Origin: Campylobacteraceae bacterium
GTDB taxonomy: Bacteria > Campylobacterota > Campylobacteria > Campylobacterales > Arcobacteraceae
Length of the DNA stretch: 64,000 bases
Direction of reading: 5' to 3'
Assembly: GCA_013215945.1 (NCBI GenBank)
Contig: JABSOM010000009.1
Location: forward strand, 1-64,000
Position 1 is the first letter of the stretch, and each line of letters starts with the position of its first letter. The notes under the pieces were generated by a model, which was given only the letters and a program-made list of their open reading frames with translations, was not told the origin of the DNA and searched no databases. Positions 1,061 to 60,878 of this stretch are shown here, piece after piece. The translations under genes and the position numbers were made by a program.

Positions 1061-3097
1061 ATGAATAATAAAGACATACGTAGTAATTGTATTATTTTTA
1101 AAGAACTTGAAGATCTTAGTTCAACACCTGGTTATATTCATATTCTTACTTATTTTGATTTTTTCTCAAATAGTATTTTTTATGAAGAGAGTAAAGGTTT
1201 AAATGGCTCAGATATTAGTGCTTTTGAGAATAAAGAGCTTCCTATTCGTTTTGAACTTTCTTTATTAATTGGGTTGCTTTGTAAACATGGTATTTTTGAT
1301 AGAACACATCTTACACTAGATGAATTTAGATTCTTGTCTGAAAAAACACTTGATCTTTTAAAAGAATTACATTCTTCTCAAGTTAGTTTTGATCCAAAAA
1401 AACTAAAAAAAGGAGATGCTAGTTTTCTAGAGGTTTTCGATGGAGGACTTAAAGAAAATATTTTATATGGTGGTGAATCTTTTTATGATTTTCAATATAC
1501 TGATTTTGCTCCTCTTAAATATAAAAATGATAATGACTGGTTTGTTCAGAATAAAGGTTTCTCTCTAGAAGAATTAATGAATGTAATAAATGCTCTTGGT
1601 AAAAACTATGAAGACAATGTTAACTTAATATATGAAAAAATTTCTAAATATAAAAATGTTGATGAGGGTGTGTTAGCTATTTTTAATGATTTGTCTTCAC
1701 ATATTCTTAATCTTGAAGTGATATCAACAAATAGTGATGTTAATTATAATATTGTAAAAAATGTACTTAATGCATTTTCATATGATTTTTCTACTTTTAA
1801 TAGTACATTTACAAGTGATGCAGATTTTAATATGGTTAATGCTTATCCTATCTTTAGGGTTGATGATAATTATATTTTGTTAATTCGAACTAGTTTATAT
1901 GAAGCATTATATGAAACACCATTTTTTTGGTTTTTAAAAGATAAAAAATATAGAAATAAAGCATCTGAAAATAGAGGTGAATTCACAGAACAATTTTCTA
2001 AGGAGTGTTTAGAAAAAGTATTTGGAAATGATAACGTTTATTTAAATGTAAATATCATGGATTATAAAAAAGTAAAAGGAAAAGAACTTGTTGGAGAGAT
2101 AGATGTATTAGTAACTTTTGGGAATAAAGCCATCATATTGCAAGCAAAATCAAAGAAATTAACCATTGAATCACGAAAAGGAAATTTATTATCTGTTAAT
2201 AAGGATTTCAAAAATGCAATTCAAGATTCTTATAATCAAGGGTACAGTTGTTCTGAGCTTATTTTGAATAAAAAACTTAAATTGATTATGGAAGACGAAA
2301 AGGAATTAAAGATTAACAGAAATTTTGATGAAATCTTTATTTTTTGTGTTCTATCGGATCATTATCCTTCTTTATCATTACAGGTAAAAGAATTGCTTAA
2401 GTATGAAACAACAGATATTATTCAAGAACCTTTTGTAATGGATGTCTTTTTATTAGATGTTATGACGGAGATGCTTTCTACTCCACTTTATTTTTTAGAT
2501 TATATTAAAAAAAGAGCATTAAGTTTTAATACAATGATTGCTCAAAATGAATTGATTATATTAGGATATCATCTAAGTATGAATTTAAACCCTCAGCAAG
2601 AATTTACTGCGATAACACTTACGGATGATATTGCCTCTTGTTTAGATGCGTCAATGATTGTTAGAAGAAAAGGGCATGAGGGAGTAAGTACTCCAAGTGG
2701 AATCTTAACAAAGTTTAAAGATACATTTATTGGAGATTATATTGATTCTATTTCAAGAAAAGAAGATATAGAAACTATAAAAATGGGTTTATTATTTTTA
2801 TCTCTTAGCGAAGATACTATGAAACAAATTAATGAAAAAGTTGATTATATTATTATGCGAAATGCACAAGATTTAAAAAGTCACAGTATTACTTTATGTT
2901 TTACGTCAGGAATATCTGCTGGAATAATTTTTTATACAAATCATATTGATTTTATTTACGCGAAAAGAAATTTTAGAAAATCTTTTGAAGTTATGATAAT
3001 GAAACAGGATTTAGATGATAATTATGCACTTTATATTGATTCTAATAATAGAAGAGTTATTGATATTAAAACACATAAAAAAGGATTATTTAGTTGA
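1061..3097 (+). CDS. Large protein with PD-(D/E)XK nuclease core, candidate defence effector
   Basis: I do not recognise the full-length family. About residues 300-370 hold a PD-(D/E)XK-type nuclease core: E307 in GEFTEQ, D348 in GEIDVLV, then Q361-A-K363 in ILQAKSK. The D-x12-Q-x-K spacing fits NERD/Mrr-like nucleases. The first 300 and last 300 residues are predicted soluble and show no motif I can name. The ATG at 1061 follows AAAGGA by 7 nt, a good ribosome site. No partner methylase is adjacent, so a classical restriction-modification pair is unlikely. It lies with the HEPN-like gene inside a repeat-bracketed island. Defence function is inferred. Confidence 0.7.
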   Translation: MNNKDIRSNCIIFKELEDLSSTPGYIHILTYFDFFSNSIFYEESKGLNGSDISAFENKELPIRFELSLLIGLLCKHGIFDRTHLTLDEFRFLSEKTLDLLKELHSSQVSFDPKKLKKGDASFLEVFDGGLKENILYGGESFYDFQYTDFAPLKYKNDNDWFVQNKGFSLEELMNVINALGKNYEDNVNLIYEKISKYKNVDEGVLAIFNDLSSHILNLEVISTNSDVNYNIVKNVLNAFSYDFSTFNSTFTSDADFNMVNAYPIFRVDDNYILLIRTSLYEALYETPFFWFLKDKKYRNKASENRGEFTEQFSKECLEKVFGNDNVYLNVNIMDYKKVKGKELVGEIDVLVTFGNKAIILQAKSKKLTIESRKGNLLSVNKDFKNAIQDSYNQGYSCSELILNKKLKLIMEDEKELKINRNFDEIFIFCVLSDHYPSLSLQVKELLKYETTDIIQEPFVMDVFLLDVMTEMLSTPLYFLDYIKKRALSFNTMIAQNELIILGYHLSMNLNPQQEFTAITLTDDIASCLDASMIVRRKGHEGVSTPSGILTKFKDTFIGDYIDSISRKEDIETIKMGLLFLSLSEDTMKQINEKVDYIIMRNAQDLKSHSITLCFTSGISAGIIFYTNHIDFIYAKRNFRKSFEVMIMKQDLDDNYALYIDSNNRRVIDIKTHKKGLFS

Positions 3098-3367
3098 TAT
3101 TAAAATAATTCATTTTAATAAAGAAGGAATAAATTAGAATACAAAAGCTTTAGGAGAAAGGGGACATACCCTATTAATTTCAGATACCCTTTATTGTGTA
3201 TACATGGGCTTTTTTTATTCATTATCCCCGCTTTATCCTTTATCTCTACTTCTTAAATTCCATTTTTTTAAGTATTGTATGACTATAATTAACTATTAAA
3301 AAATTAGTACCATCTCAATATTATGGAACTTGCAAATTAAATATTTATTTACATAATAAGGCTAAAA
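3098..3367. other. Intergenic gap of 270 bp
   Basis: No ORF of note. A sequence ggagaaaggggacatacccta near 3151-3172 looks like a degenerate D-type repeat on the minus strand. The gap is long enough for the downstream gene to have its own promoter. No clear -35/-10 pair was found. Confidence 0.4.
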
Positions 3368-5695
3368 TTGCAAAAAATCACATATACAGTTCACTCAGTA
3401 ATTGCCATAAAAAACCTTGTGTCAGTTAAATTTACTAGTTATTTAGCAAGAGTTTTATCTAGAATACTTATTGTTAGAATAGATGATTTTATTAATCTTA
3501 CTAGAAGATACAATAATGCAAATACAACAAATTCTATATTAAAAAAGAAAATTAAAAATCAACTTTTTGCCCTAAGTGAACTATATGAGGAATATTTAAG
3601 GGAGCAACGCCATAAATTTAGTGCTCATTTTCAAGATAAAAACCTTCATGAAAGAATTGAATTATGGGGAGAAATTAACGAAAATAAAATTTCATTTTTT
3701 TGCCAACAAATAATAGATATTTATAAACTTTTTGAATCTAATTCAGAATATGTTCCAATTAACGATTCAACACTTTTGTTGTCAAATGAAAAAAAAGAGA
3801 AAATCGAAAGACTATCTAAGGAAGAAGATAATTTAGAAAAGGTTAAATCTAGTGCTGACGTTTTATCCATGACTAGACCAAATATGACAAGTTCTATTGT
3901 CTTTCATCCTGTTCCAGAAAAAATGAAAGTGCTTAATACTATTTCTATGTTTTATGATTTTTTGCGAAAATTGTATGATATATTAAAAGATAATCCACTT
4001 TACGAAAAAATATTAAAAGCACAGATGATTACTGACTTAGTTAGTTTTAAAGATAATTTGATTCATAAGAGTGGGTCGCAGGATATAGGACTAAGTTATT
4101 TAATAGAGCAAGATATAGCCCCATATAAAAAGATTTTATCATACGAAAAAAACAAGCCTTCTTGTTATTCACCTTTTTCTAAATGGTTACCGCGCAAATA
4201 TATTCCAAGTACAGTCTACAAGGATGGATTAAAGGTTATATATTCATTTACAAGTAAAATCAATGACGATATATTTAATACTAGTATTAATATACGAAAT
4301 AAGATTGGAGCGCATATTGATCACACGTTATCATTTAATAATTTAGTAAATCTTTTGAACTCATTAACAATTTGTGAGATTGATGAATTGCGTAAATTAC
4401 TTATTAATCTTTGGTTAGAAGTTGGGAATTGTCACATATCATTATCTATTCAGACTCATAAGCCACTTGAACTCAAAGGGGTACTTGGATTGGTCAATAA
4501 CCATAGAGAAAGTTTCTACGAAAATAAAATAGAAAAAATAATAATCCCAACTCCTAAAACTTTTTCTTCAACTAAAGAAGCTTTTGATTTAATTCTTAAA
4601 ACGTGGGGAAAAGATGAAGATGCTATAAATTTTTTTAATCAAGGTTTTATAAAATCAAAAATGAATGTATCTATAGAACTTGAAAATCATTATAAATATA
4701 CATTTACTGATTCTGGTATCTTGCTTATGAAAAAACTTACCTCTTCTTGCGATTTAAAAGTTAAACGTTTTCTTTTAAACTATATTTCTGTGCATGGTCA
4801 AACCATTGGTGCTCAATGTAATGGAATACTTTTATTTAGTATTGGGGTGAACAAAGAATCTTTATTAAGCGAGCATATATATCTTTTGGGAGAAACTGGG
4901 GATATAGAATGCGATGAAATTTTTGAACAATTAAAATTTTTTGCTGTTCAAGAAAATATAACCGCTATTGATTCTTTCATTGCACTTTTAAAAATTGACT
5001 TAAGATATCGTGGCTTGCATTATGCCAATAATAGACAAATCGAACCAATTGAAACAAAATTTGCAATTGAATTGAAGAAGCTTTTGCAAGATTTGACTAA
5101 ATCTATGGGTATTATAGTATCTACACTTATGCAATCAGAAATTTATTTCGGCAAATATACTTATGCCAATAGATATTCGGATGCTATTTATGTAAATTTT
5201 TTGAATGAGCTTGTTTATGAAAATTTCACTAAAATAAATAATCCTCCTCCTGAAGAAGTTTTGACCAATATTAAATATAGTCATGAAAATAAAGTTTTCA
5301 CATTTACTTTAAATACACTTGAACAATATTTAAAAAATGAAGACTTGACAGAATTTATTCATTCTTTGATAATCAATGGAAATCTTGTACTTAATTACAA
5401 AGAGACGGTTTTTATGGAGCATCTAGCATACTCTTATTTTGCGCTTGACAAAACAGAAAAGTCCATTGAAGTTTATGAAGAACTTATCAGACGAGAATCT
5501 TCAAATGTCAATTTTTATATAAAGAAACTAGAATATATTTGTGAAATGAAAAATTTAGAACTTTTTGATATAGAATTGCGAAAAATGTATAAGTATTTTA
5601 ATCTAAAAGAGAGTGAGAAAGAAAAGATTAACAGCATTAGAGAGGAATTAATTGAAAATTACACCCCAGGCGTAGGAAATCCACTTTTAATTTGA
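3368..5695 (+). CDS. Large protein with two HEPN-like R-x5-H motifs and helical C-terminus
   Basis: The family is not recognised. Two HEPN-ribonuclease-like motifs are present: R81-HKFSA-H87 and R310-NKIGA-H316, each in a helical context. Together they could form two HEPN units, as in abortive-infection or toxin RNases. Residues about 690-750 look like TPR-type helical pairs. The gene starts at TTG (3368), supported by AAGG 7 nt upstream; the next in-frame ATG would remove the first HEPN motif. The last 13 residues (ending NPLLI) are encoded by repeat C at 5656-5688, so the C-terminus may have been acquired from the repeat. RNase activity is inferred from motifs only. Confidence 0.65.
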   Translation: MQKITYTVHSVIAIKNLVSVKFTSYLARVLSRILIVRIDDFINLTRRYNNANTTNSILKKKIKNQLFALSELYEEYLREQRHKFSAHFQDKNLHERIELWGEINENKISFFCQQIIDIYKLFESNSEYVPINDSTLLLSNEKKEKIERLSKEEDNLEKVKSSADVLSMTRPNMTSSIVFHPVPEKMKVLNTISMFYDFLRKLYDILKDNPLYEKILKAQMITDLVSFKDNLIHKSGSQDIGLSYLIEQDIAPYKKILSYEKNKPSCYSPFSKWLPRKYIPSTVYKDGLKVIYSFTSKINDDIFNTSINIRNKIGAHIDHTLSFNNLVNLLNSLTICEIDELRKLLINLWLEVGNCHISLSIQTHKPLELKGVLGLVNNHRESFYENKIEKIIIPTPKTFSSTKEAFDLILKTWGKDEDAINFFNQGFIKSKMNVSIELENHYKYTFTDSGILLMKKLTSSCDLKVKRFLLNYISVHGQTIGAQCNGILLFSIGVNKESLLSEHIYLLGETGDIECDEIFEQLKFFAVQENITAIDSFIALLKIDLRYRGLHYANNRQIEPIETKFAIELKKLLQDLTKSMGIIVSTLMQSEIYFGKYTYANRYSDAIYVNFLNELVYENFTKINNPPPEEVLTNIKYSHENKVFTFTLNTLEQYLKNEDLTEFIHSLIINGNLVLNYKETVFMEHLAYSYFALDKTEKSIEVYEELIRRESSNVNFYIKKLEYICEMKNLELFDIELRKMYKYFNLKESEKEKINSIREELIENYTPGVGNPLLI
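5656..5688 (-). repeat. Dispersed repeat C, copy 3
   Basis: A 33-bp segment overlapping the 3' end of the HEPN-like gene. It differs from the copy at 5965-5997 at 3 positions. Its reverse complement aligns without gaps to 905-937 with about 25 of 33 positions identical. Confidence 0.75.
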
Positions 5696-5767
5696 GATTA
5701 TATCCCTCGTATAATAAAATATAGCAATAAGCTATAATAATTAGAAGAGTCAATTTTACTATATTAA

Positions 5768-5787
5768 AAAAGGTGTCAGTCCTTACC
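5768..5787 (+). repeat. D-type repeat block
   Basis: The sequence aaaggtgtcagtccttacc resembles the D block at 879-894. It lies just upstream of repeat B copy 1. Confidence 0.4.
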
Positions 5788-5802
5788 TAAAAATATTTAA
5801 GT

Positions 5803-5906
5803 ACATTAAAGCTACTTTTCCAATATAAACAACATTCCCAACGGCTCTTCCCCTGACTTTGATAAAACTAAATATTTTTATTTTTTAACGGAAAAAGGTG
5901 AAAACT
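5803..5906 (+). repeat. Direct repeat B, copy 1 (about 105 bp)
   Basis: The segment runs from acattaaagctac to aaggtgaaaact, with shared blocks acattcccaacggctctt, cctgactttga and cggaaaaaggtgaaaact. It is repeated in the same orientation at 6471-6583. The pair encloses the small membrane-protein gene. Confidence 0.85.
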
Positions 5907-5966
5907 CGTATAATAGAATTATGTAAATATGTTAGTATATTTGCATGGAGTTCAAAACGATAATAA
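5905..5966 (-). repeat. Dispersed repeat E, copy 2 (inverted)
   Basis: The reverse complement matches 567-633, with a near-identical core around gcaaatatactaacatatt. With copy 1 it forms an inverted pair enclosing both large genes. Confidence 0.7.
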
Positions 5967-6024
5967 ATTACACCCCAAGGGGAGGAAATCCACTTTTAAA
6001 GATAAAGAGGACAGTTGCCACCTT
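5965..6024 (-). repeat. Composite repeat D-C, minus-strand copy
   Basis: Read on the minus strand, a D block (containing ctgtcctc, about 6007-6024) precedes the C block (5965-5997). This is the same order as the plus-strand composite at 879-937. Confidence 0.65.
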
Positions 6025-6118
6025 AAAAAATTTTGATTTTTTGACTAATTTAATTTTAAAGTTACCTGTCTACATTAATATAAAAGTAAATATATTTAAT
6101 TCCACAAGGATAATTATT

Positions 6119-6406
6119 ATGTGCATACCTCCATTGATTAGATATTATATGATGAATTTTATGGCGTTTAGTTCATTTTTTCTTATTATGTTTAACTTTA
6201 TAAAAATTACAAATTATGATCCAATAATTATTTTGATTAGTTATGGTCTACTTTACTATTTTTTTAATAGATGCCAAAGGTGTAATCATATAGTAGGGAC
6301 TACAAAAGATGGAATAGTTTTTCCACAAACGAAAAATAATTGTAATAAATGTGGAGCAAACCTTATAAAATGCAATATTACAAAAAAAAATAGTAGACGC
6401 AAATAG
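6119..6406 (+). CDS. Small membrane protein with C-terminal zinc ribbon
   Basis: A 95-residue protein with two hydrophobic segments (about residues 12-30 and 35-50), followed by a four-cysteine module: CQRC, then CNKC about 25 residues later. This resembles a zinc ribbon on the cytoplasmic side. The frame is open from 5945, but the first 58 codons there come from repeats E, C and D. I therefore start at the ATG at 6119, which has AAGGA 8 nt upstream. No function can be named. It sits between the two copies of direct repeat B. Confidence 0.6.
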   Translation: MCIPPLIRYYMMNFMAFSSFFLIMFNFIKITNYDPIIILISYGLLYYFFNRCQRCNHIVGTTKDGIVFPQTKNNCNKCGANLIKCNITKKNSRRK

Positions 6407-6470
6407 TAACGACATAAAAATAATGATTTATGTGTTACTGGTACTTGTTCCATTTCTTAATTTACAAATA

Positions 6471-6583
6471 TATTAAAGCTACTTTATCTTCTTTTCTAAA
6501 ATAAATCCACATTCCCAACGGCTCTTCTCCTGACTTTGAGAAAGCTAAATGTTTTTATTTTTTAGCGGAAAAAGGTGAAAACT
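6471..6583 (+). repeat. Direct repeat B, copy 2
   Basis: Second copy of the repeat at 5803-5906. It is followed by a short hairpin gtgctctttagcac (about 6600-6613) and then repeat A copy 2, so B2 and A2 are adjacent. Confidence 0.85.
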
Positions 6584-6633
6584 GTTAGAGCGTCAGAAAT
6601 GTGCTCTTTAGCACGTTTTAGCGAGTTTTTGAA

Positions 6634-6763
6634 CCTAGCTAACAAATAAAAATATTTAGGCACCCGAAGGGCTTTATCAACTCGTCAGTTGCTTCTTTTT
6701 GTTTCTTTTTCTGACAATTAAGAAAAAGAAAAAAGCGCAAAGGCTACTTTGTATGAGCTCTTA
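6634..6763 (+). repeat. Direct repeat A, copy 2
   Basis: Same orientation as 635-758. Its 11-bp stem (6702-6712 with 6721-6731) has a different sequence from copy 1 but is perfectly paired. It lies about 90 bp beyond the 3' end of rnpB. Confidence 0.85.
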
Positions 6764-6849
6764 AAAAAATGATTTACTATTGAAAGGTGTTATTAACCGA
6801 TTAGAAATATTTATATTTTTTAAATTGGATTGAAAAATGAGGAGATATT

Positions 6850-7178
6850 GATTAGGCACGGCGTAAGCCGCGTTTTGTCGTGGATAATAATTTGTCTAGT
6901 TGTTAAATTACTTAAACAATCTTGCGAAGAGCATAAAACGTGAAGTTAAATACCATCTCTTCTTGCTGCTGGTTGGGTTTACATAACTGTTAAAATTACT
7001 TAAAACATTGGTGGGCTCTTACCCCACCGTTTCACCCTTACCAAGATAAATCTTGGCGGTCTACTTTCTGTTGCACTGTCCCTTGGGTTACCCCAGCCAT
7101 TCTTTAAATGGAACCATACTTCACTGCAGCCCGGACTTTCCTCTTGAAGCTAATCAAGCTATTATCTGCCGTACCTAA
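6850..7178 (-). ncRNA. rnpB: RNase P RNA
   Basis: The minus strand shows the conserved bacterial type A RNase P core: GAGGAAAGTCCGGGC near the 5' end, then ACAGAAAGTAGACCGCC, GGTAAGGGTGAAACGGTG, GGTAAGAGCCCACC, and GCAGCAAGAAGAGATGG. The ends are set by a perfect 10-bp P1 helix: the 5' strand at 7168-7177 pairs with the 3' strand at 6853-6862. The RNA processes tRNA 5' ends with the RnpA protein, which is not in this window. It lies just downstream of lolA on the same strand. Confidence 0.95.
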
Positions 7179-53190: not shown

Positions 53191-54030
53191 ATGACTAAAA
53201 AAATGAGCTCAGATAATACTAGTGAAACAAACAAAGTTGAAACAACAGTAAACGATTTAAAAGAAAATACTTCAGAGGAAATTGAGCAAAACAATTCCAA
53301 TGACAATGAAGCTATTAGTTTATGGGCACAAATCAAAGAAGATTTTAATGTGCCAAAAGTTAATGATCCGGCATTAAATTCTACTATAGAATTGGTTTTT
53401 AACTACCCAGGTGTTTGGGCTATTATAAATCATAGAATTGCCCACCGTTTATATAAAAATAACTTTAAAATATTGGGTCGTATTATTATGGGAATTACTC
53501 AGTTTTTATGTAATATGGATATTCACCCGGCATCCGTAATTGGAAGACGCGTATTTATTGATCATGGAATTGGTGTTGTAATTGGGCAAACTGCCATTAT
53601 AGAAAATGATGTTCTTATTTATCAAGGCGTTACTTTAGGTGGAGTTTCTTTAAGTAAAGGAAAACGCCATCCTACTGTAAAAGCACATACGGTAATAGGC
53701 TCAGGAGCTAAAATACTTGGAAACATTACTATGGGAAGAAATTCTAGAATTGGAGCTAATTCTGTAGTTATTTGTGATGTACCTGATGACTCAACTGCGG
53801 TAGGCGTTCCTGCCAAAATCATTCACAGAGGCAGCTGTAAAAAAACAAAACTTAATCATGCAGATTTACCTGATATTAATAAAGAAATGTTTGAATATTT
53901 ATTAAAAAGAGTAGCACTTTTAGAGCATGCACTTAAAAAACACGATCATATAGATTTATCTACAGAAGATCATGACTTAGAATCTATTTATGAAGAATTC
54001 ATAACAGCTATGAATTCTATTAAAAAATGA
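53191..54030 (+). CDS. cysE: Serine acetyltransferase
   Basis: A 279-residue CysE: helical N-domain, then a left-handed beta helix of hexapeptide repeats (DIHPASVIGRRVFIDHGIGVVIGQTAIIENDVLIYQGVTLGG). The first 45 residues are an acidic, Asn/Glu-rich extension not typical of the enzyme. It makes O-acetylserine for cysteine. It follows speA after one base and overlaps the TSUP gene by 4 bases. Confidence 0.93.
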   Translation: MTKKMSSDNTSETNKVETTVNDLKENTSEEIEQNNSNDNEAISLWAQIKEDFNVPKVNDPALNSTIELVFNYPGVWAIINHRIAHRLYKNNFKILGRIIMGITQFLCNMDIHPASVIGRRVFIDHGIGVVIGQTAIIENDVLIYQGVTLGGVSLSKGKRHPTVKAHTVIGSGAKILGNITMGRNSRIGANSVVICDVPDDSTAVGVPAKIIHRGSCKKTKLNHADLPDINKEMFEYLLKRVALLEHALKKHDHIDLSTEDHDLESIYEEFITAMNSIKK

Positions 54031-54764
54031 TCCCAGAACTGCTTATTTTTGGTTTAATAACAGGACTAGTATCAGGTTTTTTTGGGGTGGGAGGAGGAAT
54101 GGTTCTTGTTCCCATGCTTTTAATCTCTGGTTTTGTAATGAAAGAAGCAGTTGCAATTTCTATTCTTCAAATGGTATTTTCCTCCACTTATGGATCTTTT
54201 TTAAATGTTAAAAAACAATTAGATATTGTTTATGATGGAGTCATGTTAGGTATAGGTGGTTTTATTGGAGGTCTTTTATCTTATTTTATTACCTCTAATA
54301 TTTCAAACGCTGGTTTAAAATATCTTTTTCTTGCAATCTTAGTAGCTTCAATTTTAAAAATACTACAAACTCCCGCAGTTCATAACAAAAAACAAAAAGT
54401 ACCTTCAAAAGGTTTTTTAATTTTAATTGGCTCTTGTATTGGAATGATTGCTATGAGTATTGGAGTGGGTGGTTCTATTATGTTGACTCCCATTTTAGTT
54501 GGTTTTATGCATTATAATTTAAAAACAGCTACCTCTTTATCTTTATTTTTTGTAATGTTTTCTTCCCTTGCAGGTTTTATATCTTTAAGCAGTAATTCTC
54601 AAATGTTATATCAAGAAGGTATGATAATAGGGGGAATTTCATTATTTGGGGTTTATGCTGGGGTGAAACTTAAACATTTAACAAATCTTGTTTCCTATAA
54701 AAAATATATTTTAAGCTTATATTTACTGATTTTAATTTCTATGCTGTATAAAATGTATTATTAA
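54027..54764 (+). CDS. TSUP-family (TauE/SafE) anion exporter
   Basis: A 245-residue, roughly eight-helix membrane protein with FFGVGGGMVLVPMLL and a second MSIGVGGSIMLTPILVGF in the duplicated half. TSUP proteins move sulfite or other organosulfur anions. Coupling to cysE (overlap ATGA) suggests a sulfur-related substrate; this is inference. Confidence 0.85.
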   Translation: MIPELLIFGLITGLVSGFFGVGGGMVLVPMLLISGFVMKEAVAISILQMVFSSTYGSFLNVKKQLDIVYDGVMLGIGGFIGGLLSYFITSNISNAGLKYLFLAILVASILKILQTPAVHNKKQKVPSKGFLILIGSCIGMIAMSIGVGGSIMLTPILVGFMHYNLKTATSLSLFFVMFSSLAGFISLSSNSQMLYQEGMIIGGISLFGVYAGVKLKHLTNLVSYKKYILSLYLLILISMLYKMYY

Positions 54765-54784: not shown

Positions 54785-54806
54785 CCTAAAGCCTATTGGC
54801 TTTAGG
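54785..54806. terminator. Hairpin at the TSUP/aconitase-like convergent junction
   Basis: cctaaagcc-tatt-ggctttagg is a perfect 9-bp stem in the convergent gap. T-rich sequence is present on both sides. Confidence 0.7.
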
Positions 54807-54815
54807 AAACAGAAC

Positions 54816-57344
54816 TTATTTTTGTGAGTCTAATATCTTATTTAACAAGTAGGATAAAACGCCCCCCTCTTTATAGTATTTTAACTCTTCTTCATTATCA
54901 ATACGTGATAAAACCTTCAGTGAAATTGTTTTATTTTTTGCATATATTGTTAAATCAAGTTTTTCATTAATAAAAGTATGCCCTAAAGAGTGCAAAGACA
55001 CTATTTCATCTCCTTGTAAAGCCAGGCTTTTAATATCTTCATCAAGGATCTCACAAGGAAGTACCCCATAAGAGATAAGATCTCGTTTATGCAAAGGTGA
55101 AAAAGAGCTTGCGATAACAACTTTTACGCCCAATAATGCAGTGCCTTTTGCTGCCCACTCATTTGAAGTTCCTTCTCCATACTCTTTACCTGCAAAAATA
55201 ACTAAGGCTTGTTTCTTTTTAAAAAAACGTTGAGACTTTTCATATACTGATATTATTTCCAAACTCTCATAATCTTTTGTAAAAGCACCTTCTTTGAAAA
55301 GCATTTTATTAGCTAAAGTATCACTGTCAAAACTCCCACGTACCATCACTTGTGCATTTGAATTTCGAGATAAAAAGGTATTATAAGCATAAGATTTAAT
55401 GCCTTTTTTTTCCAAATACTCACCTGCTTCTGAATACAAAGGTATTTGCCCTAAGGGCGAAATCTCATCACTTTTAATATTATCTCCTAAGAGTAAGAGT
55501 ATTCCTGCTTTATCAATAGTTATTTTCTCTTGCGATTGTTCTTGAAATACATTTAACGATTGTAAAGTAATCGATTCTTTTGGCCAAGGATATAGGTCTT
55601 TTTTTTCATAAGCAATGGCCTTCCAAAGTTCATTTCCTAAAAAAACATCTTGATAAATATTCTTATAAATACAATAATCGAGTTTGTCTAAATATTCCTT
55701 CATTAAGTCATTACTAGGCCATATATCTTTTAAATAAATTTTTTCATCAGAAACACTCATAATTTCACTTTCTAATATATTACAAGCTGTATTTCCAAGA
55801 AGAGCATAAGATATAAGCAAAGAGGGAGACATTAGATAATTAATTTTTACAAGTGCGTGTGTTTTTGTGCTATTTTCATCTTTGAGGGAACTAAGTGAAA
55901 CGGCTTTTAGATGATAATTCTTTATGTCTTCTTCTATATTTTTTTCTAATTGTAATAAAGGAATATCACAGGATTCTGCAATAATAATAAAAAAACCCAA
56001 ATATTCAAAATATTTCAGTAAATCCAGTTTTACTAAATATTCTTTTAATTTTAAAGACGAAAGTTCTAAACTACATTTAATACGAGCATTAATTCTAATT
56101 CCAAATTCATAGGCTTTTTTAGCTAATAAAGCACTGTGTATTAAAATATAAGGATTAGAAGTAGAAATACAAGAAGAAATCCTAGCAAAAACAATATCGT
56201 AATCATGAAGTTTTTTTCCCTCATTCTTTACTTTATTTAAGTTAAATTCATCTGAAGAAAAAAAAGTTGACGGTTTTTCTAAAAAAGACAGCATAACAGA
56301 AAGTTTTGACAAGTCAATAATCATATCTTCATCATATCTTAAGACACTTTGATCAAAATACATTTTTTGTTTTTCTAAATATACTTTAATAATTTTTGAA
56401 AAATCTTCATTCTTTCGTGTTTTGTTAAAATAAGAAATACTTTTGTCATCAATCGCAAAAAAAGCAGAGATAGCACCGTATTTGGGACATAATTTTAGTA
56501 TTGTTGCCCTGTCTTCTAAACTTAAAGAGTGAAGTCCTTCTCCATAAAACTCTATGAGTTTCCCTTTAAGATCATAAGTATTCAAGCGCATACACAAAGC
56601 ATGTACAATATCATTTGAATCCAAACCTTCTTTAAGTTCTTTTTGAATATTTATGCCAAGCACTTTGGGTAGTTTTAAACAAAAAGAAGAAGAAAAAATA
56701 GCTTTTTTGACTTGTATTCCTTCAAGATTATAAGCAAACACACCTAGAGAATTATGCATAACATTAAAAGAATTATGACAAAGCAACATTTCTGGGTAAA
56801 TAAAATTTTTATTGTCTTTTTGTTCTAGGTGTATAATACTTGAAAGATATTCTAAATGTAAATCATGATTCATTCCACTTCCAGGAGGAATTACTCTTAT
56901 TTTCGAAAAAGTTTTTTCTGCCCATTTGATACAAGTATATAAGTCATGCTTTTTTTCAAAAGCTTCATTATTCAACGTACTAGTGCTAAAATCATCCAAA
57001 AGTATATCCAGCATTACAGAGGGATTTATTTTTGAGCTGTCTTTTTTACGTTTTAATGCTTCTTCTCTCATATCTGCCAAATCAAGTAAGGTAGTTATAC
57101 AATCAAAGTTTTCCATGATAATTCGAGAAGGATAAAAATGTATATCTTCCTTATTTTTCCCCAGAAAAACATTCAATACTTTATTAAATTCTTCTTCGTC
57201 TTTTGCTTTTCTAAGATTCGCCTCTAAGAGAATTTTTAGAACAATAGGCAAAAACAACAAGACTTCATATTCTTTATAAAGTAAAGATAAGTCATAAAAA
57301 TAAAAGGTTTCATTTTGTATTTTAAAGTTATTAATAATATTCAT
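54816..57344 (-). CDS. Aconitase A-family homologue with lost catalytic residues
   Basis: An 842-residue protein alignable end to end with AcnA/IRP1: HFYPSRIIMENFDCITTLLDLADMRE, RVIPPGSGMNH, SLEDRATILKLCPKYGA, SSCISTSNPY, and GKEYGEGTSNEWAAKG. Key residues differ: the catalytic D-S-H of LVGTDSHT is N191-S-F193; of the three cluster cysteines C392 and possibly C459 remain but the third is Ala (about 456), and IGNSG is missing; GSSRDW is GTSNEW, losing an active-site Arg. Catalysis is improbable. The long intact frame argues for selection on another role. Confidence 0.8.
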   Translation of the reverse strand: MNIINNFKIQNETFYFYDLSLLYKEYEVLLFLPIVLKILLEANLRKAKDEEEFNKVLNVFLGKNKEDIHFYPSRIIMENFDCITTLLDLADMREEALKRKKDSSKINPSVMLDILLDDFSTSTLNNEAFEKKHDLYTCIKWAEKTFSKIRVIPPGSGMNHDLHLEYLSSIIHLEQKDNKNFIYPEMLLCHNSFNVMHNSLGVFAYNLEGIQVKKAIFSSSFCLKLPKVLGINIQKELKEGLDSNDIVHALCMRLNTYDLKGKLIEFYGEGLHSLSLEDRATILKLCPKYGAISAFFAIDDKSISYFNKTRKNEDFSKIIKVYLEKQKMYFDQSVLRYDEDMIIDLSKLSVMLSFLEKPSTFFSSDEFNLNKVKNEGKKLHDYDIVFARISSCISTSNPYILIHSALLAKKAYEFGIRINARIKCSLELSSLKLKEYLVKLDLLKYFEYLGFFIIIAESCDIPLLQLEKNIEEDIKNYHLKAVSLSSLKDENSTKTHALVKINYLMSPSLLISYALLGNTACNILESEIMSVSDEKIYLKDIWPSNDLMKEYLDKLDYCIYKNIYQDVFLGNELWKAIAYEKKDLYPWPKESITLQSLNVFQEQSQEKITIDKAGILLLLGDNIKSDEISPLGQIPLYSEAGEYLEKKGIKSYAYNTFLSRNSNAQVMVRGSFDSDTLANKMLFKEGAFTKDYESLEIISVYEKSQRFFKKKQALVIFAGKEYGEGTSNEWAAKGTALLGVKVVIASSFSPLHKRDLISYGVLPCEILDEDIKSLALQGDEIVSLHSLGHTFINEKLDLTIYAKNKTISLKVLSRIDNEEELKYYKEGGVLSYLLNKILDSQK

Positions 57345-57497
57345 AAGTAAATAGTAACTCCTCTAAAGTAATTAATAAATAAAATAGCGTATGCTTCTTT
57401 AATCTTTTATTATACTAATAAGCTTTCAAAATGCAATATTCTTTTTGTCTTAAATAACTTATGATATAATCACACTTATTTTTTCAATGGAATGGTG
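57345..57497 (+). promoter_or_regulatory. Divergent gap with extended -10 for uvrA
   Basis: TGATATAAT (TATAAT at 57465-57470) stands about 28 bp before the uvrA start. A TTGTCT at 57445 is only 14 bp away, too close for a proper -35. No LexA-type box was recognised. Confidence 0.4.
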
Positions 57498-60311
57498 ATG
57501 AAAGATACAATTAAAATAGTTAACGCAAGAGAAAACAACTTAAAAAACATAAACCTAGAAATACCTAAAAACAAACTCATTGTTTTTACAGGTTTATCAG
57601 GTTCAGGTAAGTCAACATTGGCTTTTGATACGTTATATGCAGAGGGACAAAGACGTTATATAGAATCCTTATCTGCTTACGCACGTCAGTTCTTAGGCAA
57701 AATTGCCAAACCTGATGTTGAACGCATAGAAGGACTAACTCCTGCAATTGCAATTGATCAAAAAACCACTTCTAAAAATCCAAGATCTACAGTAGGAACA
57801 ATTACTGAGGTCTATGATTATTTAAGACTCTTATATGCAAGGATTGGAGAACAACATTGTCATCAATGTGGAGACCCTATTTCTGAAATGAGTGCTTCTG
57901 ATGTTATTGAAGAAGTACTAACATTGCCCCAAAATGCAAAACTTGTTATCTTAGCACCCCTAGTCAACCGTAAAAAAGGTACTTTTGCTGATTTATTAGA
58001 ATCGTTACGAGCAAAAGGTTATGTAAGAGCTATGATTGATGGTGTTATGGTTAGACTTGATGAAGACATAGAACTAGCAAAAACACAAATGCATACTATT
58101 AAAGTCGTCATTGATAGAGTGGGTGTAAAAGAAGAAAACAGACAAAGAATAGCCCAAGATGTAGAAAAAGGTCTAAAAGAAAGTTTTGGAGAACTTGAGA
58201 TTGAAGTAATTAATCATGAAGATGTAATGTGTGAAAAACATCACCATTACTCAGAACACATGGCATGTTTTGCTTGTAAAATATCTTTTGAACCCTTAGA
58301 ACCTTTATCTTTTTCTTTTAACTCACCTAAAGGCGCTTGTCCTTCTTGTGATGGTTTAGGAATAAGATATGCCATTGATATGAAAAAAATTATTAATGCA
58401 GACTTATCTATTGAAAAAGGCGCAATTAAAGTTATTTATGGTTTTAATAAAGGCTATTATTTTAAAATGTTAGTTGCTTATTGTCATGCGGCTAATATAG
58501 ATATCACTGTTCCTTTTTCAAGCTTAGAAGAACATGAGAAAAAAGCCATTTATCATGGAGGTTTTGAAGAGGTAAAATTTACTTGGAAAAACCACAAATT
58601 AAGCAGAAAATGGGAAGGTGTTGTAAAAATTGCCTACGGAATGATTAAAGATGAAAAAGAAATGGCTGAATACATGACAGAAAAAACATGTTCTGAATGT
58701 GGTGGTCACAGATTAAAACCTTCTTCTTTGGCTGTTAAAGTAGCCAGTAAATCAATTTGTGAATTAACGTCTATTCCTATAGAAGATTCTCACACTTTTT
58801 TTCAAGATAAAAATAATTTTTCATATTTGAATGAACAAGATACACTCATTTCTACTTCTATTTTAAAAGAAATAAAAGAAAGAATTTATTTCTTATTTGA
58901 TGTAGGTTTAGGATATATTACTTTAGGAAGAGATGCAAGAAGTATCTCAGGTGGAGAAGCACAAAGAATTAGAGTTGCTTCACAAATTGGTTCTGGTTTA
59001 ACGGGTGTATTATATGTACTTGATGAACCTTCTATTGGTTTACATGAACGAGATACAAATAAACTAATAAAAACACTAAAAGCCTTACAAGAAAAAGGGA
59101 ATACAGTTATTGTTGTTGAACATGACAAAGAAACCATTAAAGCAGCAGATTATATTGTTGATATTGGACCAAAAGCAGGTAAGTTTGGTGGAAATATTGT
59201 TTTTGATGGAACCTATAAACAAATGCTTAAAGCAAAAACACTTACTGCCAAATATATTTCAGGTGCCAAAAAAATTGATTACAAACACAACAGACCTTGT
59301 GAAACATTTATAGAAATAAAAAATGTTACAATTAACAATATAAAAGATTTAAATGTAAAAATTCCACTTAAAACCTTGTGTTCGATTACAGGAGTATCAG
59401 GAAGTGGAAAGTCTTCTTTAATATTACAAACCCTACTTCCTGTTGCAAAAGAATTATTAAACAATGCAAGAAAAGTAAATAAAGTGGATGGTGTAGAAAT
59501 TACAGGACTTGAGCTTTTAGATAAAGTGATTTATTTAGATCAAAGCCCAATAGGAAGAACTCCCAGATCAAATCCAGCAACGTATACAGGTTTAATGGAT
59601 GAGTTAAGACTGTTATTTTCAAAAACTAAAGAAGCACAATTAAGAGGGTATGCAATAGGACGCTTCTCTTTTAATGTAAAAGGTGGGCGTTGTGAGAAAT
59701 GTCAAGGAGAAGGTGAAATCAAGATTGAAATGCATTTTCTACCAGATATTATGGTTAAATGTGATGAATGTCATGGTTCAAGATACAATCCTCAAACCCT
59801 TGAAATTAATTATAAAACAAAAAGTATCTCCGATGTATTAAATATGAGTGTTGATGAAGCCCTGGAATTCCTTGTTAAAATTCCAAAAATTCATGCAAAA
59901 CTTCAAACCTTAAGTGATGTAGGTTTGGGATATATTACTTTAGGACAAAATGCTATTACTTTATCAGGTGGAGAAGCACAAAGAATTAAATTATCAAAAG
60001 AATTAAGTAAAAAAGATACAGGTAAAACACTTTATATCTTAGATGAACCTACAACGGGTCTTCATTTTGCTGATGTTGATAGATTAACCAAAGTATTGCA
60101 CCATTTAGTTGATTTAGGAAATTCTGTTTTAGTCATTGAACATAACTTAGATATTGTAAAAAATTCTGATTGGGTTATTGATATGGGTCCTGAAGGTGGA
60201 AGTAAGGGTGGAAAAATAGTGGCTGAAGGAACACCTGAAGATATTGCTGCAAATCATAAAAAAACAGCTTCATATACGGGTTATTACTTAGAAGCAGAAT
60301 TGGCACAATAG
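57498..60311 (+). CDS. uvrA: UvrA, excision-repair damage-recognition ATPase
   Basis: About 937 residues; a tandem ABC ATPase. Walker A motifs are GLSGSGKST and GVSGSGKSS; ABC signatures are SISGGEAQRIR and TLSGGEAQRIK. Zinc modules are HCHQCGDP...CFACK and CEKCQGEGE...CDECHG. It scans DNA for lesions with UvrB. The start is ATG at 57498 (GGA 6 nt upstream); an ATG six bases earlier is also possible. Confidence 0.97.
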   Translation: MKDTIKIVNARENNLKNINLEIPKNKLIVFTGLSGSGKSTLAFDTLYAEGQRRYIESLSAYARQFLGKIAKPDVERIEGLTPAIAIDQKTTSKNPRSTVGTITEVYDYLRLLYARIGEQHCHQCGDPISEMSASDVIEEVLTLPQNAKLVILAPLVNRKKGTFADLLESLRAKGYVRAMIDGVMVRLDEDIELAKTQMHTIKVVIDRVGVKEENRQRIAQDVEKGLKESFGELEIEVINHEDVMCEKHHHYSEHMACFACKISFEPLEPLSFSFNSPKGACPSCDGLGIRYAIDMKKIINADLSIEKGAIKVIYGFNKGYYFKMLVAYCHAANIDITVPFSSLEEHEKKAIYHGGFEEVKFTWKNHKLSRKWEGVVKIAYGMIKDEKEMAEYMTEKTCSECGGHRLKPSSLAVKVASKSICELTSIPIEDSHTFFQDKNNFSYLNEQDTLISTSILKEIKERIYFLFDVGLGYITLGRDARSISGGEAQRIRVASQIGSGLTGVLYVLDEPSIGLHERDTNKLIKTLKALQEKGNTVIVVEHDKETIKAADYIVDIGPKAGKFGGNIVFDGTYKQMLKAKTLTAKYISGAKKIDYKHNRPCETFIEIKNVTINNIKDLNVKIPLKTLCSITGVSGSGKSSLILQTLLPVAKELLNNARKVNKVDGVEITGLELLDKVIYLDQSPIGRTPRSNPATYTGLMDELRLLFSKTKEAQLRGYAIGRFSFNVKGGRCEKCQGEGEIKIEMHFLPDIMVKCDECHGSRYNPQTLEINYKTKSISDVLNMSVDEALEFLVKIPKIHAKLQTLSDVGLGYITLGQNAITLSGGEAQRIKLSKELSKKDTGKTLYILDEPTTGLHFADVDRLTKVLHHLVDLGNSVLVIEHNLDIVKNSDWVIDMGPEGGSKGGKIVAEGTPEDIAANHKKTASYTGYYLEAELAQ

Positions 60312-60343: not shown

Positions 60344-60559
60344 ATGAATAATAATACAAACCCAATGCAAGGTATTACCTTAGAGAAAATGCTTATATCT
60401 CTTGAAAAAGAATATGGTTTTAATGAACTTGGAAAACGCATCAATATTAATTGTTTTAATTATGATGCTTCTATTAAATCAAGTCTTACGTTTTTAAGAA
60501 AAACTCCCTGGGCAAGAAGTAAAGTTGAGAATTTATATAAAAGAACTTTTATTGACTAA
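60344..60559 (+). CDS. VF530-family small DNA-binding protein
   Basis: A 71-residue protein with GITLEKMLISLEKEYGFNELGKRININCF, SIKSSLTFLRKTPWARSKVENLY. This is the VF530/DUF2132 domain, a small helical fold reported as DNA-binding. It may start at the second Met (60365 region). It is followed by a DUF309 gene with an 8-base overlap. Confidence 0.85.
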   Translation: MNNNTNPMQGITLEKMLISLEKEYGFNELGKRININCFNYDASIKSSLTFLRKTPWARSKVENLYKRTFID

Positions 60560-60878
60560 AATATTAGCTATTGACTTATTTATACAAGCCATTCAAAAAA
60601 ATGAATTTGTACAAGCCCATGAGTTATTAGAAGACGATTGGAAATTGTATAAAAAAAAAGAAATGAAAAAACATGCAAAAGCTTTGCAGGGTCTAATTAA
60701 TGGAGCCACGGCTTTGGCATTACTTCATATAAAAAAAAGACCTCATGCTTATGTTAAAGTATGGAAAGTTTTTGAAAAATATAAGGTTTTATTAGATGAA
60801 ATAGAATTAGAGAATATGGACAGATTTATCTTAGCAAAACAAATATTAGAGCAGAAAAACAAAATACTAAATTACTAA
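60552..60878 (+). CDS. DUF309 family protein
   Basis: About 108 residues with the DUF309 signature EFVQAHELLEDDW and KALQGLINGATALALLHIKKRPHA. The family is helical and of unknown biochemical role. The start is uncertain: TTG at 60525 or 60552, neither with a strong ribosome site. It ends within 4 bases of the convergent FlaG-like gene. Confidence 0.8.
   Translation: MTKILAIDLFIQAIQKNEFVQAHELLEDDWKLYKKKEMKKHAKALQGLINGATALALLHIKKRPHAYVKVWKVFEKYKVLLDEIELENMDRFILAKQILEQKNKILNY

Follow-up and report, generated by a model that had tools for sequence, protein, structure and literature searches.

The window examined here, a stretch of 64,000 nucleotides of DNA from a member of the Arcobacteraceae, carries a gene that is recognisable over its whole length as an aconitase of the AcnA type but has lost much of the active site. 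Such a locus raises the question of whether the cell maintains a protein that no longer works as an aconitase and, if so, what that protein could be doing.

The gene and its surroundings

The reading frame, previously described as intact, is open on the minus strand up to its stop codon, and both Pfam domains, Aconitase (E 1.6e-63) and Aconitase_C (E 1.4e-22), were found across the full length of the product. NCBIfam AcnA models span residues 4-839, and the window protein shares whole-length homology, domain order and fold with bacterial AcnA (TIGR01341, PRK09277), its nearest outgroup in the tree. It differs from AcnA in having lost the active site and the cluster ligands, in being modelled in an open shape and in scoring below every curated AcnA cut-off (613 versus 945, 609 versus 905 and 627 versus 686 bits). 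The score against the AcnD model TIGR02333 was likewise below the cut-off (371 versus 1420 bits).

The gene is flanked by a divergent uvrA and by a convergent gene whose product, judging by its appearance, we take to be a TauE/sulfite-exporter-like protein (Table 1). The inverted repeat between the two convergent genes possibly marks the shared end of their transcripts; it has no T-run, and the intrinsic-terminator scan returned no terminator. A search against Rfam gave no RNA family in the vicinity of the aconitase-like gene, and the comparison of conserved neighbourhoods among carriers yielded no functional operon partner. A small protein of 117 amino acids is encoded after uvrA (60525-60878) and is present around the gene in many carriers.

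Table 1. Features at and around the aconitase-like gene, in window positions
Feature	Position	Strand	Remarks
TauE/sulfite-exporter-like membrane protein	54027..54764	+	ends the hisS-speA-cysE-tauE block flanking the aconitase-like gene
Perfect 9-bp inverted repeat CCTAAAGCC-TATT-GGCTTTAGG	54785..54806	.	lies where tauE and the aconitase-like gene converge
Aconitase A-like pseudoenzyme gene	54816..57344	minus	842 codons plus stop; based on frame, Pfam/NCBIfam, residues and purifying selection
Intergenic region shared with divergent uvrA	57345..57491	.	seen in the sequence
Putative ribosome-binding site, CTCCTC on + (GAGGAG on -)	57358-57363		13 nt before the ATG; marginal owing to the long spacing
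uvrA	57492..60311	+	conserved neighbour on the other side of the aconitase-like gene

A normal acnB, whose presence the preliminary description of this DNA had proposed to confirm, lies complete elsewhere in the same genome (G000:C2:189316-191850). A second AcnA-type paralogue, the Fe/S-dependent 2-methylisocitrate dehydratase AcnD (TIGR02333), occurs in this genome (G000:C6) and in most carriers; unlike the window protein, to which it is 29% identical, AcnD scores over its cut-off and has all 17 of the active-site residues compared below. With both AcnB and AcnD encoded, the genome has other genes to carry out the TCA and methylcitrate steps, which matches the roles of AcnB and AcnD in Arcobacter butzleri (PMC2147049). 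Within the family, AcnB was found in 99 of 104 genomes, with a match in every carrier of the aconitase-like gene except G076 (91% complete, 180 contigs). One genome, G089, has an intact acnA directly downstream of nifH, nifD and nifK (L053, G089:C5:118000-130000, at 4429-7074), and this aconitase appears to sit inside a nitrogen-fixation gene cluster.

Orthologues in the Arcobacteraceae

Orthologues were found in 37 of the 104 Arcobacteraceae genomes searched; 32 are full-length, two have a large internal deletion and three are partial or broken. The carriers are many marine relatives of Arcobacter, including Arcobacter sp. NORP36, Poseidonibacter lekithochrous, P. ostreae and a Halarcobacter sp., and the phylum sample outside the family gave only matches of ~30% identity, the same level as AcnD. 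A maximum-likelihood tree separated 34 of the sequences, as a single clade supported at 100/100, from the AcnA of E. coli, from AcnD and from G089's intact AcnA. The window protein is 35-47% identical to those of other genera, compared with 78-86% for UvrA.

Most carriers have the order hisS, speA, cysE, tauE, aconitase-like gene (on the opposite strand) and uvrA. The orthologue lies beside or near uvrA in nearly all of them, usually with tauE as well, and a few show extra genes in between or a rearrangement on one side. The tauE gene is kept as a neighbour in most carriers and adjoins uvrA in several non-carriers: in G103, G015, G117, G118, G028 and G029 the empty tauE-uvrA gap measures only 107 to 134 bases, the site in G103 being clean at 123 bp. 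The gene is absent from G124 too. The fixed locus in carriers and the short gap in non-carriers indicate that the aconitase-like gene is old in the family, vertically inherited and cleanly losable.

Among the incomplete copies, that of G002 is a partial one at a contig end. L059 (G003:C157, 5181-6089) consists of the last ~300 codons only, unrelated genes replacing the first 544 in a fragmented metagenome assembly, and L057 (G125:C46, 4106-5761) changes frame near codon 155 and lacks codons ~560-800, as either a genuine or an assembly-made pseudogene. Possible in-frame stops in L011 and L012 were discarded as not real, the matches having run past the normal stop codon.

Loss of the active site

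The 17 catalytic, cluster or substrate residues compared are those invariant in five AcnA proteins. In an alignment to E. coli AcnA and to human IRP1, whose numbering is used throughout, the window protein keeps six of them. The losses listed in the preliminary description were all recovered: the catalytic D-S-H (D205-S206-H207) reads N-S-F, DIPLL stands in place of the IGNSG stretch, the SSR motif (S778-S779-R780) reads T-S-N, and one cluster cysteine, C503, is Ala in an ungapped reading (AESC versus CMTC), a column in which MAFFT alignments place Ser or a gap. Six further losses, H126D, N298K, E302K, N535K, R536D and R541K, were not on that list. The window protein retains C437 and C506, the latter being Ser in a 91%-identical sister (L005); the three-cysteine [4Fe-4S] ligand set is incomplete in both, C503 being gone from the window protein and C503 together with C506 from the sister. 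An 'invariant R580' was rejected as an additional marker: by residue count in the IRP1 PDB chain, E. coli AcnA R709 (in SRRGN) corresponds to IRP1 R712, and the R699/R580 column varies even among AcnA proteins (R, E, H, N, H).

None of the 32 full-length orthologues has a complete active site and each lacks at least three of the 17 residues, so that the pattern, being common to all of them, is due neither to chance nor to one odd sequence. S778 corresponds to S642 of mitochondrial aconitase, the catalytic base serine of that enzyme, and is lost in 31 of the 32 copies; C506, the third cluster cysteine, is lost in 28. Individual sites were lost independently at least 5 to 15 times, with losses counted without regain. 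The copy nearest to complete, L035 (G104, 1498-4098), retains 14 of the 17 residues, including all three cysteines, and lacks R541, S778 and S779. Two other copies, in G108 and G110 (L055 and L056), have an in-frame deletion from IRP1 residues ~374-380 to 600-611 that leaves open frames of 672 and 622 codons; by the usual boundaries, the deleted stretch is presumably almost exactly aconitase domain 3. The relevant tree support (57/66) does not decide between one deletion event and two.

Retention of the catalytic residues was no higher than that of type-matched AcnA-invariant residues (0.438 versus 0.481 expected), and a faster loss of catalytic than of other conserved residues was not clear (p ~0.08 unmatched, 0.30 type-matched). 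Because of this last result, the substitutions would appear to reflect lost constraint only, with no sign of selection against catalysis. On this retention, the cleft is without its special constraint while the fold keeps its own. Other residues, among them N43, E185, E277, K320 and E696, are invariant within the family yet differ from those of AcnA.

Selection on the gene

Stops and a dN/dS near 1 in sister strains, named beforehand as signs of relaxed selection that would speak against a maintained protein, were not found: dN/dS between the window gene and its sister was 0.175 (bootstrap 0.12-0.26), and the window gene has neither the disrupted frame nor the dN/dS near 1 of a pseudogene. Eight close pairs gave values of 0.06-0.19 (Nei-Gojobori), in each case with both copies already lacking the active site; in more distant pairs, where synonymous sites are near saturation, dN/dS ranged from 0.24 to 0.38. 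Frames are intact in 34 of the 37 orthologues, and neutral evolution simulated over an equally long lineage introduced 14.5 stops on average and at least 6 in 500 runs, against 0 observed. Given the low dN/dS of the close pairs, the protein is maintained by purifying selection. This constraint is weaker than that on housekeeping genes, since neighbouring genes in the same genome pair have a dN/dS of 0.03 to 0.08, the value for the aconitase-like gene being 2-6 times as high, yet it is strong.

Predicted shape

An AlphaFold2 model of the window protein, built with 28 aligned relatives (mean pLDDT 85.5, pTM 0.84), lies 3.8 Å over 800 residues from the RNA-bound, open IRP1 structure 3snp and 9.1 Å over 805 residues from the closed structure 2b3x. 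The control model, of the intact G089 AcnA, was built from an alignment that included 28 further intact AcnA and AcnD sequences (mean pLDDT 79.9), and it lies 2.9 Å over 862 residues from closed IRP1 and 11.3 Å over 819 residues from the open form. The window protein is thus predicted to be open and the intact AcnA closed, as one would expect were the window protein unable to close, in a comparison where both IRP1 states were probably part of the AlphaFold2 training, the two models were built from different alignments and the control had the lower pLDDT. The earlier suggestion that the protein might be locked in an apo-like state agrees with this prediction and its control, and stands at the level of the models.

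Possible functions

Our preferred reading, to which we assign a probability of roughly 0.45, is that the gene encodes an AcnA-derived pseudoenzyme that is held open and acts by binding, most probably as an RNA-binding post-transcriptional regulator. The gene has been passed down at a single chromosomal site within part of the Arcobacteraceae; its protein, preserved by purifying selection, has lost the residues required for normal aconitase chemistry, whose roles are textbook knowledge, and in most lineages is unable to hold a cluster with three cysteines. Without the cluster that closes the domains, it may stay in the open, pincer-like shape of RNA-bound IRP1 and serve as a permanently apo-like binding protein. 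It could then bind RNA without iron switching, and post-transcriptional regulation would be the likeliest outcome, although this is the least certain step of the scheme. Catalysis in the TCA cycle would be left to AcnB and methylcitrate chemistry to AcnD where present. We infer a protein that only binds, with RNA as its likeliest ligand, from simulations in which IRP1 is locked in the closed state by its cluster and favours the open state as the apo form (PMC8469783), from the binding of mRNA by apo-AcnA of Mycobacterium tuberculosis (PMC7527780) and by apo-AcnB of E. coli (PMC4150767), and from the cluster-free IRP2.

Several observations count against RNA. Most of the positions that we take to be RNA contacts of IRP1 are changed in the window protein (R269N, N298K, T438I, N439S, R713N, R728T and R780N); S681, P682 and W782, which we likewise take as contacts, are kept but are general AcnA residues. 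Nearly every member carries a net negative charge, and the window protein is acidic. Part of the RNA site of IRP1 lies on domain 3, which is missing from G108 and G110, and the high divergence relative to UvrA also weighs against the preferred reading. All of this would suit the main rival explanation, in which the same pseudoenzyme binds a protein and no RNA, perhaps scaffolding or inhibiting TCA enzymes such as AcnB, citrate synthase or isocitrate dehydrogenase: the changed contacts and the acidity favour such a role, two copies do without domain 3, the fast divergence would be in keeping with a partner that evolves alongside, and PDB entry 9a4j models a complex of AcnA with isocitrate dehydrogenase. 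Nevertheless, no partner gene travels along, the neighbours being housekeeping genes that are present also where the aconitase-like gene is absent, and we regard a protein partner as rather unlikely.

A redundant acnA that is slowly dying, with selection relaxed after AcnB took over, separate erosion in each lineage and no present function, could account for the many independent active-site losses, for a dN/dS above that of neighbouring genes, for the G003 and G125 copies, which are truncated or broken, and the partial one in G002, and for the clean absence in G103 and the absence in G124. The selection data make this improbable, because dN/dS remains low in pairs where both copies had already lost the site, frames are largely intact, with no stop where more than a dozen would be expected, and family-specific residues have become fixed.

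An enzyme of altered chemistry, acting as a cluster-independent hydro-lyase or isomerase on another acid, would be in line with the retention of D125, D205 and R712 in most or all full-length members, but the catalytic wall varies freely among orthologues (E, K, T, N, D, V, S, Q or Y at the S778 position), no new fixed set of residues is seen as a replacement, and retention there equals the background, which leaves such an enzyme very unlikely. It is scarcely credible that the protein still functions as an aconitase and bears a cluster despite its divergent residues, given that L035, despite its three cysteines and a score over the NCBIfam AcnA cut-off (1024.6 versus 945), lacks S778, S779 and R541, and that the window protein lacks 11 of the 17 residues and scores below every AcnA cut-off.

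Comparison with known systems

The literature searched contained no bacterial aconitase pseudoenzyme and no account of this gene in Arcobacteraceae. In bacterial aconitases the RNA-binding role is hard to separate from the enzymatic one, and the mycobacterial study describes such experiments as challenging because AcnA is essential (PMC7527780). With more than 30 natural orthologues maintained by selection after losing catalysis, in genomes whose acnB is intact, deleting the gene would be a simple way to probe for a non-enzymatic role. Likewise, the orthologues grade from a copy with 14 of the 17 catalytic residues to copies without a whole domain and could illustrate a route from enzyme to pseudoenzyme, and genes of the L035 type, which pass aconitase annotation cut-offs, would be wrongly counted in metabolic models.

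On our best reading, the family is a lineage-wide bacterial aconitase pseudoenzyme whose nearest analogue is vertebrate IRP2, an aconitase paralogue reported to be without an Fe-S cluster (PMC10340119). The window protein resembles IRP2 as a presumably cluster-free paralogue, and its model aligns to the IRP2 structure 6vcd (2.8 Å over 627 residues). It differs in being bacterial, in having an RNA-binding activity that is only putative and in an erosion that took place separately and repeatedly; no sign of the 73-amino-acid IRP2 insert was seen in it. Tentatively, the family might be a bacterial counterpart of IRP2, that is, a dedicated and permanently cluster-free RNA regulator of aconitase fold that arose from AcnA within the Arcobacteraceae, gave up iron sensing and could even have its cluster domain deleted without the protein being lost. 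The other parallel is offered by the apo forms of M. tuberculosis AcnA and E. coli AcnB, which likewise combine a cluster-free aconitase fold with a possible role as RNA-binding regulator (PMC7527780, PMC4150767); those proteins, however, are working enzymes that switch, whereas the window protein would be without the means to switch back.
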